Of a DNA stretch of 64,000 nt, positions 1,700-29,767 are shown piece after piece (position 1 is the first letter of the stretch; every line of letters starts with the position of its first letter). The position numbers and the translations under genes were made by a program. The DNA comes from Actinomyces sp. S6-Spd3 (GTDB taxonomy: Bacteria > Actinomycetota > Actinomycetes > Actinomycetales > Actinomycetaceae): contig NZ_JRMV01000196.1 of NCBI RefSeq assembly GCF_000758755.1, positions 62,001 to 126,000 on the forward strand, written 5' to 3'. The notes below the pieces were generated by a model, which ran no database searches, was not told the origin of the DNA, and worked only from the letters and a program-made list of their open reading frames with translations.

Positions 1700-2770
1700 T
1701 CAAGCTCTGAGTCGTTTCCCTCGTTTCGCTCCCCACAGAAGAATCTCGGAAAGCTGTCGAAGGACCAGGGAAGGGTCGGCCAGCGCACTCCACCGCAGAC
1801 GAACGACTTTCCAGCCCTCGGCCTCGAGACGACGCTGGCGATCTTGCTCATCTTCAATCACCGAATGAACCTGATCGACGGTATCCCCATATTTCTGGCG
1901 GCCATCAAATTCGTACGCAATTTTGTGCATCGGAAAAGCAATATCGACGAAACATTGACGACCGACGGCATTGACTTCATATTGGGTCTGCATTTGGGGA
2001 GCCCTGGCAGATTGAAGAATAAATAGAAGACGAGATTCGCCTGGAGACTCACACCCCGCGTCAAGCCTGGGGATCAAGGATCGAAGCTTGGCGTTGTTAC
2101 GAATATTGCGGGCAAGGCGCGCGTGAGTGAGTTGAAGACTCTCTCGAGCTGAACGTTCCCGGAAGCGAGAGGCCCCTTGCCTGAAACGATCAAAGTTCAC
2201 GATGGCGGCAAAAATCATGTTGATTTGAGGGAAAAGATCAGCCAACCGCATGCGGCGAGGGGCACGAGTGACGCAACGAATGAGGAGAGACTCTTGATCC
2301 AAGAAACGCAGTCCTTCAACGCGCTTAAGACCCGCACGGCCATCGCAATGACGCGGACCGACACTGATCGCAGCCGCGACTACGCGCTGATCGAGAACTA
2401 CTGCTGGGAAATGCAGAGGACGAAGGCTGTGATCTTTGCCGTGACACAAGTCCGGGGCTAGGTCAAAGTCGTGCGTGTAGCCGTAGATAAAGAGTGACAG
2501 ACGAGAATCAAGCACGAGATAGGGGCGTCGGTGGATCGCCGCCAGAGCTCGTGCGATCAGGACCATGAATTGGGCATTCACCAAGCCTTGATGACAAGCT
2601 GATCGAAGGGCAGATGAGGGAAGATAACTTCCTCTGATGATCCGAACAATTTCACCGGATCGACAGCGATTGGCGAGAACTCGTCGGTTACTTGTAGACG
2701 AGTAGAGCATCGCTTGGGACACACTCCGAATAATCGAAGAGATGAAACGTGGCTCAATAACGATTTTCAC
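1700..2770 (-). CDS. DUF559 / Vsr-like endonuclease-fold protein
   Basis: Protein of 356 residues. The N-terminal two thirds resemble the AbiEi-like winged-helix region found in many actinobacterial DUF559 proteins, a weak family-level impression. The C-terminal ~110 residues show a PD-(D/E)XK-like pattern: a Glu in GESRLLFIL, FVDIAFPMHKIAYEFDG with the acidic strand residues, and the closing RRLEAEGWKVVRLRW. The GTG at 2770 is chosen because AGGAGG lies 5 bases upstream; a longer frame to 2845 lacks this. These proteins are often called type IV TA or repair-like, but the function is not known. It stands alone, and the gap on its 5' side carries an 81-bp inverted-repeat element. Confidence 0.7.
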   Translation of the reverse strand: MKIVIEPRFISSIIRSVSQAMLYSSTSNRRVLANRCRSGEIVRIIRGSYLPSSALRSACHQGLVNAQFMVLIARALAAIHRRPYLVLDSRLSLFIYGYTHDFDLAPDLCHGKDHSLRPLHFPAVVLDQRVVAAAISVGPRHCDGRAGLKRVEGLRFLDQESLLIRCVTRAPRRMRLADLFPQINMIFAAIVNFDRFRQGASRFRERSARESLQLTHARLARNIRNNAKLRSLIPRLDAGCESPGESRLLFILQSARAPQMQTQYEVNAVGRQCFVDIAFPMHKIAYEFDGRQKYGDTVDQVHSVIEDEQDRQRRLEAEGWKVVRLRWSALADPSLVLRQLSEILLWGAKRGKRLRA

Positions 2771-3012
2771 CGCGCCCTCCTCTTTCGGATCCACACTCGA
2801 TGAACACTGACCGTCTATAAGTAAGGATGCGTGCTGCGACTTCAACTGGCAGAACAGTTATGCAATCTGTGGATAACTCGGCTCAAACACAACACTGTGG
2901 ATCGGCGGTTGCGCTACTTCAGGCTAGAAACCAAACCAAAACCCTCGCATCGAAGCTACTCAAATGCCCCACCCTTGCGATCGCTACCCTAGCGAGCCCA
3001 AATCTCCATTCA

Positions 3013-3093
3013 CCCGGACAAAGTGCGTCTGAATGCGGAGACAAAGGTACAAATACTGTGAATCAGTTGAGGCTATGACGCACTTTGTCCGGG
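3013..3093 (-). repeat. 81-bp inverted-repeat element, copy 1
   Basis: Perfect 17-bp arms (CCCGGACAAAGTGCGTC at 3013-3029 and its complement at 3077-3093) enclose 47 nt. The same arms and the same spacer length recur at 18699-18779 and 29582-29662. By spacer comparison this copy is inverted relative to the other two: read on the minus strand the spacer starts ATAGC and ends ATTCA. It lies between the 5' end of the DUF559 gene and the 3' side of gpmA. Confidence 0.9.
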
Positions 3094-10862: not shown

Positions 10863-10935
10863 GCCGCCTTAGCTCAGTCGGCAGAGCGATTCACTCGTAA
10901 TGAATAGGTCGTGGGTTCGATTCCCACAGGCGGCT
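10863..10935 (+). tRNA. tRNA-Thr (anticodon CGT)
   Basis: 73-nt cloverleaf: acceptor GCCGCCT pairs with AGGCGGC (10928-10934), D arm AGCTCAGTCGGCAGAGC, anticodon stem ATTCA/TGAAT with loop CTCGTAA (anticodon CGT), T arm GTGGG-TTCGATT-CCCAC, discriminator T. CCA is not encoded. The 3' half is the left end of a 47-bp direct repeat bounding an inserted island. Confidence 0.96.
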
Positions 10936-10939
10936 CAGA
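10893..10939 (+). repeat. attL-type direct repeat in the tRNA-Thr 3' half
   Basis: 47 bp from the anticodon loop to 4 bp past the tRNA end, identical to 15640-15686. Such duplications are left by tyrosine-recombinase integration into tRNA genes. The copy here completes the functional tRNA. Confidence 0.93.
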
Positions 10940-11544
10940 GGTTCGCCGGGAAACCGGCGAACTCACAGGCGAAGAACTCACCCACGCCCTATACGCCGCC
11001 CACCAAGCAGCCGACGAAGCTACAGGCCCATAAGCCTGCGCCGAACGGGCGCGAGTACACAGCCTCGAAGAAGAAAATTCCTTGCGCGCCAAATGAACAG
11101 ACGAGACCTTGCGCGCGAAGAATACCAACGCGCCAACAGGCACGATCCCATCACAGGCAGCGGCGACCCCAGGGGCGCCCAATACCAATTCGAGACAGCC
11201 GCAGAAATGAAACGCGCCCTCTTAGCAGAAGCACAAAGACGCCGCCCTGACGCCCCCGCCCCCAAGCACAAGACGGCCTCACCCAATGGACCGCGCCCAC
11301 AAGCGGCCTACACGATAGGGCACTACCTGAAGAATGGCGCACCGCCCTCACCAGCCAGCGCTCAATCTTGCGCGAAATCCTCATCCAAGCAGGAAAAGAC
11401 GCCAAAGTGCAGCCTTGGATGCAAGGCGTCTGCCAGCCCGAACACCTCACCAACGAACAACGGAACACGACCGTCGGACAAATCCAGCTCTGGCGCACCA
11501 ACACGCCAAGTCGTAATGCGGGAGGACGCACAATGCAGCCCTAG
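10940..11544 (+). pseudogene. Decayed mobile-element gene (relaxase/mobilisation-like C-terminal part)
   Basis: Protein-like sequence continues in shifting frames. First comes a piece with ETGELTGEELTHALYAAHQ; then NRRDLAREEYQRANRHDPI through EMKRALLAEAQRRR; then, after another shift near 11255, EEWRTALTSQRSILREIL through VGQIQLWRTNT to a stop at 11544. Each piece reads like a charged helical protein, yet in-frame stops separate them. The start is missing because the sequence begins at the attachment repeat. It may be the tail of an actinobacterial relaxase or replication protein; that identity is a guess from style, not a match. Confidence 0.5.
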
Positions 11545-11606
11545 GATCAGATCTTGTCTACTCTCTTTTTCCTACTCGCTACTTCATCATATACTTAAGG
11601 ACTGTG

Positions 11607-12644
11607 ATGGAACGTATCAACGCTATTGACCTGTTCTGCGGGACCGGCGGCTTGTCGCTGGGCTTGAAGCAGGCTGGCATTAACGTTGTTGCTGGTGTGG
11701 ATTTTGAGAAGCGCTGCGCTTACCCGTACGAGTATAATATCCACGCCCGTTTTATCCACGCCTCGGTCACCGACATTACCGGTGCAGATCTGATGGAGTT
11801 GTGGCCAAAAAAGGGCATCCGTCTTCTGGCAGGATGCGCGCCGTGTCAGCCTTTTTCTAGCCAGCGCCGCGGGCATTCTCCTTCATTGGATAGGAACTGG
11901 CCGCTTTTGCGTTCCTTTGCCCGCCTCGTGCGAGAAACGCTCCCTGAGCTTGTGACGATGGAAAACGTTACCCGCCTAGAACGAGACTCCATGTTCACAG
12001 AGTTCACAGACGCTCTACAAGAATGCGGTTACCACGTTTCTTACGGCGTGCTCTTTGGGCCTGATTTCGGGCTCGCACAAAATAGGCGGCGTCTCATCTT
12101 GCTGGCTTCCCGCAGAGGGGAGATTCAGATGCCTATGCCCACGCACAGCCCAGAAACCTACGTCACCGTCGATGAGGTAATCGGACACTTGCCGCACCTT
12201 GGCAGCGGAGAACATGACCCCTATGATTCTTTGCACTTCGCGAGGCAACTTTCGCCCTTAAACCTGAAGCGCGCAATAGCCTCCAAACCTGGGGGAACAT
12301 GGCGAGATTGGCCTGAAGAACTTCTTGCACCGTGCCAAAAACGCGACAAGGAAGCAAACTTTGCTTCCTTCTATGGACGCATGCGAGGAGATACCCCTTC
12401 GCCCACCATCACCACCCAGCCATACAACACCGGTGCTGGACGCTTCACACACCCCAGACAAGATCGAGGCCTTACCCTGAGGGAAGCTGCCCTGCTACAA
12501 GGGTTCCCACAAGAATTCGTCTTCACAGCCCCCGAAGAAAGCATCACTCTCACCGGTGTCGGCAAACTCATCGGCAACGCTGTCCCGCCTCATTTTGGGA
12601 GAGCTGTGGGGCGCACCTTTTTTGAGCACATTCAGGCTCTGTGA
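11607..12644 (+). CDS. DNA (cytosine-5-)-methyltransferase
   Basis: Methylates C5 of cytosine in a DNA target site using S-adenosylmethionine. The 345 residues show the ordered motifs: I AIDLFCGTGGLSLGL, IV AGCAPCQPFSSQ with nucleophile Cys80, VI MENV with Glu119, VIII AQNRRRLILLA, a short target-recognition region, IX LTLREAALLQGFP and X IGNAVPP. Complete and apparently active. The ATG at 11607 follows AAGGA at 5 bp; an overlapping GTG 3 bp earlier is less likely. Its stop abuts the stop of the convergent ATPase with no gap. No restriction endonuclease gene lies beside it, so the ATPase is its likely partner. The target sequence cannot be inferred. Confidence 0.95.
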   Translation: MERINAIDLFCGTGGLSLGLKQAGINVVAGVDFEKRCAYPYEYNIHARFIHASVTDITGADLMELWPKKGIRLLAGCAPCQPFSSQRRGHSPSLDRNWPLLRSFARLVRETLPELVTMENVTRLERDSMFTEFTDALQECGYHVSYGVLFGPDFGLAQNRRRLILLASRRGEIQMPMPTHSPETYVTVDEVIGHLPHLGSGEHDPYDSLHFARQLSPLNLKRAIASKPGGTWRDWPEELLAPCQKRDKEANFASFYGRMRGDTPSPTITTQPYNTGAGRFTHPRQDRGLTLREAALLQGFPQEFVFTAPEESITLTGVGKLIGNAVPPHFGRAVGRTFFEHIQAL

Positions 12645-14348
12645 TTATTTGTCTATCCCCGCCTCACGCACAGCCTTTTCCAGCACAGAAATCTTCTCAG
12701 CCAGATACCCTCTTCCAGGTTCTGTCAGGTCTGCCGTATGCATGACTACATTACGCAAGATACGCAATAACTCCCTATCCCTGAAATCAATGTTGAAGCA
12801 GGAAGTTCTATCGTGTTTTTTCATCGAGGTAAGTTCTGGGAACTGAAGATACCAGACACCCTCTGAATGCATGCGAACATGTTTGCTGATCCCAGCTTCC
12901 TCTAGCTGCTTCTTTTCTTTCTTCCGAGCATCCTGGATTGCTGTTTTTAGTCCGCCGGGAAGTGCCTCGTCGTCGGCATAGCCCATGTCGCATAGCTTGT
13001 AGCGCATAGCGTTTTCAATTAAGTAGAGAGTTGTATAGTGACCTGCGGAAACTTCAGCACCAGCGGAAGCTCTTTTTAAGAGCATCTTCCAAACATCTGA
13101 CTCTTCATCTGTTTCCGCTGACTTCCCTAAGCTTTTCTCTATTTCCTGCACTAACTTCTTTGCTGCTCGCTCAGTCCCAGGGACACTCGGATTGTCTGGA
13201 TCCCCGTCTTTCTTATAGTGAAGACGCAAGGCGTCCCATGTGTCGTATAGACTTTTCAGCCCCTCTTTCAGGGATTCAAGAAAATCTTGGTACATGTCAT
13301 CATCTTTGATAATCCCCTCTCGACTACTGATGAAGGGATCTGTTCCAGGGCGATCAAGGCCGTCGATATGGATCTGCCCGTAGAGATAGTTTTCAGGGAC
13401 ACGTGCAGAAGGAATGTGACTCAAAATATTTTGCTCACGCAAACGACCATTGACAAAAAGATCTACACCAGCCTTTTCGTCCATGCCAAGAACTTTTAGA
13501 TCGCGAGGTTTTTCAACGGTTGCTAAAAATCCTTTAACCCCGTCTGTAAAATCATAAGTAAAAGTTTTCTTCACTCCAGAATCGGTTACTTTTGTGAAAG
13601 CCTTGTGGATTAATTCGAGATAGGGATCGTCGAACTCTCCGATCTTCCAGGCAAATTCCGTTTTCTTCGCAAAAACCTCTAAGTCCTCTACTCCAACTTC
13701 CTTGTCGTTATAAAAGATATGAAAATTATTGTCAATAAGAGAAAAGCGAAAAGCCAATGCAATCGAGCGCCGCAAGAAGTCGTCGCTGCTATTGCTCATC
13801 CTGAGTCCGTCAAGCTGAAGAAAAGTTCCGTGGTGAAAATCTCGTCTTTCTTGCCAGTCCCTCAATTTCTCGTATAAAGATTCAGGCGCGTCATAAAGCT
13901 CCACCTCTTTAATGTCATAATCGTTGGCTACAGCCTCATCAAGCGCCTTATTGTTAATGACGCATCCCGCCGCCTCGTGATCGCTCTTGAGGGAGAGAAC
14001 AGAGACCGCATCAGCACATGACAATAGCGCAAGCTTCCCAATACCTTTTGCCCCAATATATGGGCGATTCTTCGCGGAGTGGGTTAACTCGTGCCCTTTC
14101 CCTCGTTTGGAGTAACCAATCTTAAGGAAATGCTCCCTCAAATCCTGAGAACTCATCCCCACACCATCATCAATAATGAGCATCTGGGTTCGATCACTGC
14201 TTACGCTGATCCACACGTTCTCCGCATCAGCATCCCAGGCATTAGAGATCGCTTCACCCAGAACCGTAGTGAAATTTCGATAAAGCTGTCGCCCCAGATG
14301 ATCCAGCACAGTCGCAGAAAAAGAGAAAGTATGAACATCGTTGTGCAC
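12645..14348 (-). CDS. MORC-like GHKL ATPase with C-terminal HEPN-like domain
   Basis: Protein of 567 residues. The N-terminal GHKL ATPase has the N-box EAISNAWDADA (Asn36), G1 box IIDDGVGM (about 58-65) and G2 box YIGAKGIGKL (97-106), followed by a transducer-like region with FVNGRLREQNILSHIPSARV. This layout matches prokaryotic MORC/MutL-type ATPases, a family known to sit next to DNA methyltransferases. The last ~130 residues are helical, with YTTLYLIENAMRYKL and the motif RNVVMH at 532-537. The RNxxxH pattern with an N-terminal helix suggests a HEPN ribonuclease; this is an inference. The GTG at 14348 has AAGGAG 7 bp upstream. Likely the effector of a methylase-linked defence system. Confidence 0.8.
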   Translation of the reverse strand: MHNDVHTFSFSATVLDHLGRQLYRNFTTVLGEAISNAWDADAENVWISVSSDRTQMLIIDDGVGMSSQDLREHFLKIGYSKRGKGHELTHSAKNRPYIGAKGIGKLALLSCADAVSVLSLKSDHEAAGCVINNKALDEAVANDYDIKEVELYDAPESLYEKLRDWQERRDFHHGTFLQLDGLRMSNSSDDFLRRSIALAFRFSLIDNNFHIFYNDKEVGVEDLEVFAKKTEFAWKIGEFDDPYLELIHKAFTKVTDSGVKKTFTYDFTDGVKGFLATVEKPRDLKVLGMDEKAGVDLFVNGRLREQNILSHIPSARVPENYLYGQIHIDGLDRPGTDPFISSREGIIKDDDMYQDFLESLKEGLKSLYDTWDALRLHYKKDGDPDNPSVPGTERAAKKLVQEIEKSLGKSAETDEESDVWKMLLKRASAGAEVSAGHYTTLYLIENAMRYKLCDMGYADDEALPGGLKTAIQDARKKEKKQLEEAGISKHVRMHSEGVWYLQFPELTSMKKHDRTSCFNIDFRDRELLRILRNVVMHTADLTEPGRGYLAEKISVLEKAVREAGIDK

Positions 14349-14410
14349 GGCAGGCTCCTTCGAAATAGCTGCTCACCCAGCGTAAGTATAACATCCGGCC
14401 TTGAAGCAAA

Positions 14411-14435
14411 AATCCCACCCGTGAGGGGTGGGATT
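14411..14435 (-). terminator. Minus-strand terminator upstream of the MORC-like gene
   Basis: A 10-bp perfect stem (AATCCCACCC / GGGTGGGATT) with a 5-nt loop; on the minus strand it is followed by TTTTT. It would stop transcripts from the right part of the island before the ATPase gene at 14348, isolating that gene's own promoter. Confidence 0.75.
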
Positions 14436-15110
14436 GTGCTTATTTGTCAGCTGGTGTGGTTACCCGCCACGAAGGCTATTCTAACTTGGGGCTCCAGTCT
14501 CACCAAGCTTCGCAGTCGCCCGAACTCACCGTACTCTGCGGTGCAGGCCTGTAATTCCACCCTTACTGACATGAACGGGTGTAGTGCCTCGCCGTTCGGC
14601 ATACAACCCATAGAATATGGGCTGCGTATCAGGTGCTCAGCAAGGAAGAACTTACGTGTGCGCTTCAACAGGCAACTACTCGGTGATCTTGTTGGATGAG
14701 TCGATTCGTGAACGCCCTAAAGTAGAACAGTTTTACGTTGTTTCTGCTGTGCAGCCACGTTTCGAATCGAAGGATGGGCGCGATAAAACCTTGGAAGCAT
14801 TGCGTTCTGGGTTGATTCCCCTTGCTGAGGGACTGTTCGGCAGGCCCTATTGGATACGGTTGAGGCGTGGTAGATTGATGGCGAGAAGACCGCAGAGAAA
14901 ATGTGCGGGCTCATCGCCACCTCATGCGATGTACGTATGAGCATCGCAAGCATTGGCCTGGGTAAGAAAAAATTTTCTGCTGAGGAGTATAAGCAAGCAC
15001 GAGGCAAGGCTGTTAAGAATGCGGTGAGTGCATTACAGGCTCCATCTGCGCTTATGGTGCTCGATCGCGTCCGCAGTTACGGACGTAATCGTCGTAATGA
15101 CGTTGGGTGA
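14436..15110. other. Decayed coding stretch inside the island
   Basis: No intact gene was found. Plus-strand frames contain protein-like pieces: ILLDESIRERPKVEQFYVVSA with TLEALRSGLIPLAEGLFG (about 14680-14850), then a shifted piece with GLGKKKFSAEEYKQARGKAV (about 14955-15010). The first has a DUF3800-like flavour (early LLDES then a VVSAV strand), a weak resemblance only. Stops and frame changes suggest relics of old cargo. Confidence 0.35.
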
Positions 15111-15349
15111 TGGAGGGGATGTTCGCACGGTTGCGCCTTTGCGTCGCGATAAGAGCGTGGCGGGAAGTGCGTCAATCTGAGCTTGCAGGTGCGCGGCATC
15201 CACACTGGCGTCGTGCCAGGCGCCCGTGGTGGGGGCGTCGTGGATAACGCCCACTTCGTCCACATACATGCCGTCTACCAGGCGCGGGCCTTCGCGAGGT
15301 GTCTTGCTTCTTTCGGGGCGCGGTCACCATATGGGTTGTGTGTGCTCAT
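15033..15349 (-). pseudogene. Frameshifted small island gene
   Basis: An ATG at 15349 opens MSTHNPYGDRAPKEARHLAK and reaches a stop after 24 codons. In another frame the sequence continues protein-like as VDGMYVDEVGVIHDAPTTGAW and runs to 15033. A single-base shift near 15275 would join them. It lies 15 bp after the stop of the small HTH-like gene, as an operon partner would. Family not recognised. Confidence 0.4.
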
Positions 15350-15364
15350 TGGTGGTTGATCCAA

Positions 15365-15583
15365 TCAGAGTGGACGGTAGGGAAATGCTGGAGACTTTGC
15401 GCGCAACAAATAATGCATATGAGGAGCCGATATACCCAACATCGCCGCAGCCGCGCGCACAGGAACAAACAACCCCCGAAAATCAGGGTCATCCACAGAC
15501 TCGCGCAAACACTCCGCGAACTCAGCAGAAGATAACTCCACCAAATCCACAAAATCAAAATCAAACCGACCTGAAACAGGCAT
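15365..15583 (-). CDS. Small putative HTH protein (excisionase/repressor-like)
   Basis: 72 residues with an acidic N-terminal half (FDFVDLVELSSAEFAECL) and a C-terminal helix-turn-helix-like stretch, FVPVRAAAAMLGISAPHMHY, of the type seen in excisionases and plasmid control proteins. The ATG at 15583 has the strong ribosome site GGAAGGAGG 5 bp upstream, unusually good for this window, which argues that it is a real gene. It lies 57 bp inside the right attachment repeat, where xis genes of integrative elements often sit. Function inferred only. Confidence 0.55.
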   Translation of the reverse strand: MPVSGRFDFDFVDLVELSSAEFAECLRESVDDPDFRGLFVPVRAAAAMLGISAPHMHYLLRAKSPAFPYRPL

Positions 15584-15639
15584 CCGAACCTCCTTCCAAC
15601 GACTGGGAGGAGACACTCTCAAACGCTCTCAGCTAGCAA

Positions 15640-15686
15640 ACTCGTAATGAATAGGTCGTGGGTTCGATTCCCACAGGCGGCTCAGA
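15640..15686 (+). repeat. attR-type direct repeat (truncated tRNA-Thr copy)
   Basis: 47 bp identical to 10893-10939, covering the anticodon loop to the tRNA 3' end but lacking the 5' half of the tRNA. It marks the right boundary of the island. Confidence 0.93.
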
Positions 15687-18698: not shown

Positions 18699-18779
18699 CC
18701 CGGACAAAGTGCGTCATTGCTCGACCGATTCCGGCCATATACGGACACGAGCCTCTCGTTCAGACGCACTTTGTCCGCG
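18699..18779 (+). repeat. 81-bp inverted-repeat element, copy 2
   Basis: Left arm CCCGGACAAAGTGCGTC at 18699-18715; right arm begins GACGCACTTTGTCCG at 18763. 15 bp of the arms pair perfectly; the outermost 2 bp do not. Spacer 47 nt, starting ATTGCTCGA and ending GTTCA. It lies in the gap between DUF4956 and the beta-helix gene. Confidence 0.9.
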
Positions 18780-18834
18780 GGGTGGGGTGGATCCGCGGGG
18801 TGGGCACACGGGGTGGGTCCACGGGAGTGGCCCA
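18777..18834 (+). repeat. G-rich degenerate tandem repeat beside IR copy 2
   Basis: Four units of about 13-18 bp around GGGGTGGG followed by ATCC, CACAC, TCCAC or CCCAC start at the right arm of the inverted repeat. A short tandem array also lies to the right of IR copy 3. Confidence 0.55.
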
Positions 18835-18864
18835 CAAGACGGAAAAACCCGCAGACAAACGAGC

Positions 18865-29581: not shown

Positions 29582-29662
29582 ACCGGACAAAGTGCGTCAT
29601 AGCTCGAAGGATAGGCGTGAAATAGGTGCGCTATGCCCACACATTGACGCACTTTGTCCGCG
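29582..29662 (+). repeat. 81-bp inverted-repeat element, copy 3
   Basis: Left arm ACCGGACAAAGTGCGTC (29582-29598) and right arm GACGCACTTTGTCCG from 29646, with a 47-nt spacer that begins ATAGCTCGA. It sits between the convergent 3' ends of glmS and the DUF4862 gene. Same orientation as copy 2. Confidence 0.9.
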
Positions 29663-29730
29663 GGCGGATACTCCGGTGGGGATATCCCGGTGGAGATACT
29701 CCAGGCGGATACTCCGGGCGGATACTCCGG
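29663..29730 (+). repeat. Five-unit tandem array of short palindromic repeats
   Basis: Units of 14, 14, 14, 13 and 13 bp, each close to GGCGGATACTCCGG; variants keep dyad symmetry by paired changes (TGGGGATATCCCGG, TGGAGATACTCCAG). It directly abuts inverted-repeat copy 3. Confidence 0.85.
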
Positions 29731-29767
29731 GGGGCCGATAATTCAACGAGCGCTTAGGCAAGCACTG

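Follow-up and report, generated by a model that had tools for sequence, protein, structure and literature searches.

The window analyzed here is a 64,000-bp stretch (C196:62001-126000) of the draft genome of Actinomyces sp. S6-Spd3 (G000; 2.09 Mb in 281 contigs, of which C196 measures 145164 bp). It carries a family of short, extragenic inverted-repeat elements and, beside one of them, a minus-strand gene (1700..2845) that joins an AbiEi-like N-terminal part to a Vsr-like endonuclease C-terminal part, which we propose as the cognate gene of the elements. The pattern GGACAAAGTGCGTC-N47-GACGCACTTTGTCC, which measures 75 bp between the outer ends of its paired 14-mers, occurs at three sites in the window and at one just outside it. 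These four copies, starting at C196:48620 (A), 65016 (B), 80702 (C) and 91585 (D), all lie within 43 kb, and no other site was found in the genome. Copy B (3013..3093), where the family was first noted, is a perfect inverted repeat with 17-nt arms and a 47-nt spacer (14-nt core arms at 3016-3029 and 3077-3090). Copy C (18701..18777) has 15-nt arms around a 47-nt spacer (core arms at 18702-18715 and 18763-18776) and copy D (29584..29660) has 16-nt arms around a 45-nt loop (core arms at 29585-29598 and 29646-29659, again 47 nt apart), no strand being assigned to any of the three. The fourth genomic copy, A (C196:48620-48694), lies 13.4 kb to the left of the window. The first-pass annotation had described arms exactly 47 nt apart at three sites, as found here, and a length of 81 bp in all three, which applies to copy B only, as C and D span 77 bp.

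The paired arrangement sets these sites apart from chance occurrences of the arms. When the distance between arms was allowed to vary from 40 to 55 nt, four places were again found in the genome, and the reversed control gave none. Single arms with up to two mismatches occurred 17 times (eight exact and nine with two mismatches, against 21 for the reversed control), and none with exactly one mismatch was found anywhere in the genome. Within the window, arm matches with up to three mismatches numbered 15, compared to 7.3 expected and a maximum of 13 in 100 shuffles. Under uniform placement, the three copies that are not adjacent to the AbiEi-Vsr gene (A, C and D) would fall as near to it as observed with a probability of about 1e-5.

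All copies are located between supported genes, in agreement with the earlier statement that none lies in a gene: those bordering the window copies have family matches or conserved neighbors, and the seven open reading frames (ORFs; 82-165 aa) overlapping the three window copies had no Pfam match at E <=0.01. Copy A has the 3' end of a D-Tyr-tRNA deacylase gene on one side and the start of a clpC-like gene on the other (domains Tyr_Deacylase, Clp_N and AAA_2); copy B is found between gpm and the AbiEi-Vsr gene, copy C between two minus-strand genes and copy D between two converging genes.

G010, a related genome taken to be that of Actinomyces marseillensis, carries five copies within 42 kb, namely the orthologs of A to D (B, C2:268327-268401; C, C2:281929-282003; D, C2:292809-292883) and a fifth copy, E, at C2:278828 between a tRNA and a minus-strand gene. 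At every one of copies A-E, the end of the right-hand gene points towards the element. Across the four orthologous pairs the arms are unchanged at 112/112 positions, and the spacers differ at 33/188 (18%; 40, 40, 32 and 43 of 47 positions identical), with all spacers kept at 47 nt despite indels in the flanks. By our arithmetic, the chance of 112 unchanged arm positions at the spacer rate is near 4e-10. This bears out the earlier suggestion of selection on geometry. Since every G000 site has a G010 ortholog, the exact-pattern search lost no mutated sites. The exact pattern was present in two of 35 genus genomes, G000 and G010, and with up to three mismatches in one of the 151 genomes of a family sample, which is G000 itself (G010 lies outside that sample). 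Neither a set of chance copies only nor freely varying spacing was found for the window family in G000 and the 35 genus genomes. Two spacer pairs exceeded their shuffles, C-D (23/47 identical) and C-E (22/47), with 99th percentiles of 18 and 20, respectively; the relative orientation of copies A and B is ambiguous in pairwise spacer comparison. Ahead of copy E there is also a truncated left arm, GGACAAAGTACC (L007 1450-1461), in what appears to be a diverged direct duplication.

The AbiEi-Vsr gene sits between carD and gpm, is absent from that place in two further genus genomes (G016 and G019), and encodes 381 aa from the longest ORF, the true start being uncertain; copy B starts 168 bp upstream of this ORF start. 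The N-terminal part has an AbiEi-like fold and the nuclease part has the fold of Vsr-type (EDxHD) homing endonucleases such as I-Bth0305I, and its presumed catalytic residues have been retained. It differs from homing endonucleases in that the gene was not seen interrupting its own target and is instead accompanied by paired-arm sites. An adjacent DUF1814 nucleotidyltransferase toxin gene is not present, the neighbors being CarD and phosphoglyceromutase. A sequence search of the PDB with the window protein (1700-2845) gave no match, and neither a function for AbiEi-Vsr proteins nor their pairing with repeats was found in open PubMed Central papers. Homologs are encoded in 33/35 genus genomes, with two or more in 30/35. 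A second AbiEi-Vsr gene in the same genome (L106, C274:99001-107000) has an element family of its own, and the spacer of its upstream element is about 20 bp shorter than that of the downstream one and of the G010 counterparts. At G010:C2:811001-820000 (L109), two AbiEi-Vsr units 2.1 kb apart have identical flanking inverted repeats and search score, as if gene and elements had been duplicated in tandem. A perfect match to TTATCCACA, which we take to be the DnaA box, lies at 2868-2876 between copy B and the AbiEi-Vsr gene; it is kept in G010 (L006 1359-1367), and a second motif, TGTGGAT, follows it in both genomes.

Homologs of this gene elsewhere often have inverted repeats of ~70-80 bp at their flanks, with private arm sequences; the similar total length is partly imposed, as the scan admitted loops of 34-50 nt. 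The genus set comprised 65 non-duplicate loci of 70 fetched (L058, L060, L061, L062 and L065 were dropped as duplicates), the 70 being part of the genus homolog matches listed. At a score >=12, 25 inverted repeats were found at distances of up to 400 bp from the gene (52.5 kb), none farther away (223.8 kb) and seven in predicted ORFs (78.5 kb); at >=11 these numbers were 29, 11 and 9. Some of the repeats counted as ORF-internal are found at the ends of ORFs whose start, taken from the longest frame, was probably set too early (e.g., L079 and L122). Control loci around gpm (28/30 loci, 104.6 kb) gave two repeats at >=12, one a window-family copy and the other a C run. Near the gene and farther away, 17 and three repeats were found at 30 loci from other genera of the family (all three at L185, whose arms also occur near), and nine and one at 29 loci from other families of the class, a set of 30 from which the locus of G000 itself (L206) had been removed. 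Elements were present on both sides of the gene at 19/124 loci (score >=10), and their arms match in 17/19, compared to 2.7% for shuffled partners. A further inverted-repeat family, with arms around GTCGCATGCAATT or TCGCACGTAATT and loops of about 74-83 nt, was seen at loci L085-L094 (G020:C1 1030641-1114863 and G021:C1 195024-280767).

One family also has dispersed copies. The pattern GCAGCATTAG-N37-CTAATGCTGC, with up to two mismatches, occurs in 3-29 copies in nine species (G001 29, G021 27, G013 12, G026 11, G022 10, G006 9, G023 7, G020 6 and G005 3), is absent from the other 26 of the 35 genomes and gave no hit as a reversed control. Many of these copies are alike over about 78 bp, with homology stopping at the arms (query about 941-1018). 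Copies without mismatches mostly lie beside the AbiEi-Vsr gene (3/3 in G006, 2/2 in G020 and 3/4 in G013); for G022, G023, G026 and partly G021, copy places were taken from among the matches listed. The nine non-adjacent copies of G013 lie on average 272 kb from the gene compared to 614 kb under uniform placement (P 0.0014), and the six of G006 223 kb compared to 608 kb (P 0.0026), a clustering that proximity to the origin could also cause. All pairs among nine orthologs share 84-98% identity in the nuclease part. The N-terminal part is 79-93% identical among G006, G026, G013 and G020, all with GCAGCATTAG arms next to the gene. Between these four and G005, G018, G022 and G021, where the arms nearest to the gene are different, mixed or variant, the N-terminal identity is 61-80%. 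The G005 gene has GGGGGATTTGCGCCAT arms, and the GCAGCATTAG copies in this genome all carry one or two mismatches, as predicted by decay after a change of specificity.

From the anatomy and conservation of the elements, their flanking of genes with matching private arms, and the dispersed copies in relatives, we consider it probable, with some reservation, that the AbiEi-Vsr protein recognizes the elements as its cognate sites and that the two form a unit working like REPIN-RAYT systems with an unrelated enzyme. We infer that two protein molecules would bind the two inverted arms through their AbiEi-like N-terminal parts and bridge them, the arm centers being 61 bp, or about six helical turns, apart; under this proposal, arm sequence and spacing would be fixed and the spacer left free. 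The Vsr-like part would then nick or cut at or near element sites, and repair or copying may occasionally leave an extra element nearby. Enzyme and element family would thereby form a two-part unit, with gene lineages that have private arm sequences, from which the host may also benefit. A REP-like unit and a protein-bridged site had both been put forward in the first-pass annotation and come close to this conclusion, though the likely cognate gene was missing there.

REPIN-RAYT systems, as described in excerpts of PMC3116915 and PMC8266576, share with the present elements the paired inverted conserved ends, a conserved spacer length, an extragenic position, an enzyme gene with its own repeat class, and dispersed copies. 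They differ in that the proposed partner here is an AbiEi-Vsr fusion and not a Y1/HUH transposase, and in that the window family is low-copy and near its gene (four copies within 43 kb in G000, five within 42 kb in G010) instead of genome-wide and high-copy. No RAYT (Y1_Tnp, PF01797) was found at E <=0.001 in six genomes (G000, G010, G005, G006, G013 and G020), compared to matches in 5/14 control genomes, so the elements do not belong to the REPIN-RAYT class but may work like it. More tentatively, it is possible that AbiEi-Vsr fusions of the Actinomycetes are a RAYT-independent second invention of REPIN-like repeats, binding, cutting and spreading private families of ~70-80 bp, with the DNA-binding half and the arms changing together and the nuclease half staying constant. 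The pairing would be of a new kind if the enzyme spreads its sites, mobility being a prediction from sequence.

Several observations weigh against an enzyme that recognizes and spreads these elements. Pfam matches of the AbiEi-Vsr protein fall below the family cut-offs, and a Foldseek search on its own found nothing in the PDB at E <=0.001. The binomial P of 9e-19 for near versus far repeats at the genus loci is overstated since the loci are related, and a near inverted repeat with a score >=12 was found at only 21/65 of them (28/65 at >=10); the remainder may have lost the element, have another geometry or not be members. Among the matches listed for G021, the gene-adjacent copies carry one or two mismatches and the one copy without mismatches lies elsewhere; the G023 gene had no element in its vicinity. 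Arms and N-terminal part track imperfectly, as the two identity ranges touch (G020-G022, 80%). The N-terminal part of G022 is 66-69% identical to those of G006, G026 and G013, yet its gene is followed by perfect GCAGCATTAG arms and preceded by GCACTACA arms, and G013 has imperfect GCACTACA elements upstream; these mixed arms count against a simple one-to-one rule between arm and enzyme. The arms are retained in dispersed orthologous copies, a conservation that would be superfluous if the element were purely selfish. Lastly, no clean 77-81 bp insertion was seen at sites A-E or at one aligned G013 copy compared with G006 and G023 (C and D by reading).

The main rival, which we regard as unlikely, is that the elements are operators through which an AbiEi-like protein represses its own gene, the other copies being a small regulon or passive duplicates with no mobility. 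The fold of the N-terminal part and the paired inverted repeats upstream of the gene recall AbiE type IV toxin-antitoxin systems, in which the promoters of AbiEi and Rv2827c contain inverted repeats that are bound by these same proteins (PMC7319586, in part). The distance to the ORF start is 105-215 bp for many upstream elements, which would fit operators, and arms are conserved at dispersed orthologous sites as expected of working ones. According to the same part of that source (PMC7319586), AbiEi-type repeats are 23 bp long and 3 or 13 bp apart, in contrast to arms of 14-20 nt tens of bp apart here (14-17 nt and 47 nt in the window family). A nuclease domain is also fused here, the neighbors are carD and gpm, and copies occur downstream of homologs and dispersed as well. 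Elements can lie on both sides of the gene, and each of window-family copies A-D is downstream of the gene to its right, with converging genes around D. Up to 29 dispersed copies of one family are hard to see as a regulon; the operator model accounts for upstream elements and not easily for downstream or dispersed ones.

It is quite improbable that the elements are non-autonomous transposons resembling miniature inverted-repeat transposable elements (MITEs), mobilized by a conventional transposase, the AbiEi-Vsr gene being a bystander or passenger. The elements are short and extragenic with terminal inverted repeats, as in MITEs; homology of the GCAGCATTAG family ends at the arms in many copies, and filled and empty sites exist. 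One G013 dispersed copy is missing from the orthologous place in G006 and G023, and at site E the element is present in G010 but not in G000, G016 or G019; the insertion there, of some 340 bp, is bordered by an imperfect 7-bp match (GAAACTG/GACACAG). In G000 this site is like that of G016/G019 and not that of G010, the next 3 kb being 93% identical to G016 (flanking segments, 72% and 86%). The empty G000 site may stem from recombination with a G016-like donor and is no proof of gain in G010. The region is syntenic with G016/G019 at about 70-93% DNA identity, and sites A-E fall in stretches that do not align there: site B measures 1.8 kb against 86 bp in G016, the site A alignment has no clean boundary, and at C and D the G016 sequence is longer and different (by reading only). 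Against the MITE model, no clean target duplication was seen at the sites aligned, the window-family spacers are strongly diverged, arms match across the two sides of an AbiEi-Vsr gene and differ between genes, and all copies of the window family fall within 43 kb around its gene, for which uniform placement of three copies gives P 1e-5.

A structured RNA, with the arms as stem and the spacer as loop of a transcript, had also been suggested and is very improbable: on both strands, the predicted folding of the three window elements is much stronger than that of shuffled sequences (z -4.6 to -6.9), but this follows from the perfect arms, as that of the spacers alone is not (z 0.08, -1.05 and 1.02), no Rfam match on the elements was found at E <=1 in window 1-33000, and the arms are invariant within the window family, leaving no possible covariation signal. 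A general chromosome-segregation or origin site is unlikely, as the exact pattern is absent in 33/35 genus genomes and present in 1/151 of the family sample; dnaA of G010 lies 156-198 kb from the element cluster, and gene-proximal and origin-proximal clustering are inseparable here. A phage origin (no matches in viral contigs) and an intrinsic terminator (no T run after the arms in the element sequences) were rejected as well, as was an invertible switch: spacer orientation is mixed by eye but the same in four orthologous pairs, the pairwise test being ambiguous.

Repeat-like DNA follows copies A, C, D and E, and none follows B. G-rich imperfect repeats (18778..18835) lie to the right of copy C and imperfect GGCGGATACTCC-like repeats (29661..29740), with indels relative to G010, to the right of copy D; both were seen by eye with approximate bounds and no strand assigned. 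Elsewhere in the window, 47-bp direct repeats of a tRNA-Thr 3' end (10893-15686) enclose a cytosine DNA methyltransferase gene (11604-12644) and a gene (12645-14348) whose GHKL-ATPase product resembles a type II restriction enzyme; this island was apparently integrated at the tRNA and is unaligned in G010, G016 and G019. The segment 15640-18600 is 93% identical to G016/G019, with neighboring segments at 72% and 86-88%, and in its tRNA-side terminator it agrees with G016 and not with G010, so that it is probably a homologous replacement from a G016-like donor.

Known target sites would make this unstudied nuclease family a testable system, and orthologous genes with differing arms would offer a natural series for changes in DNA specificity. 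If AbiEi-Vsr proteins do spread their own sites, they would be dedicated enzymes of REPIN-like repeats that are unrelated to HUH transposases.
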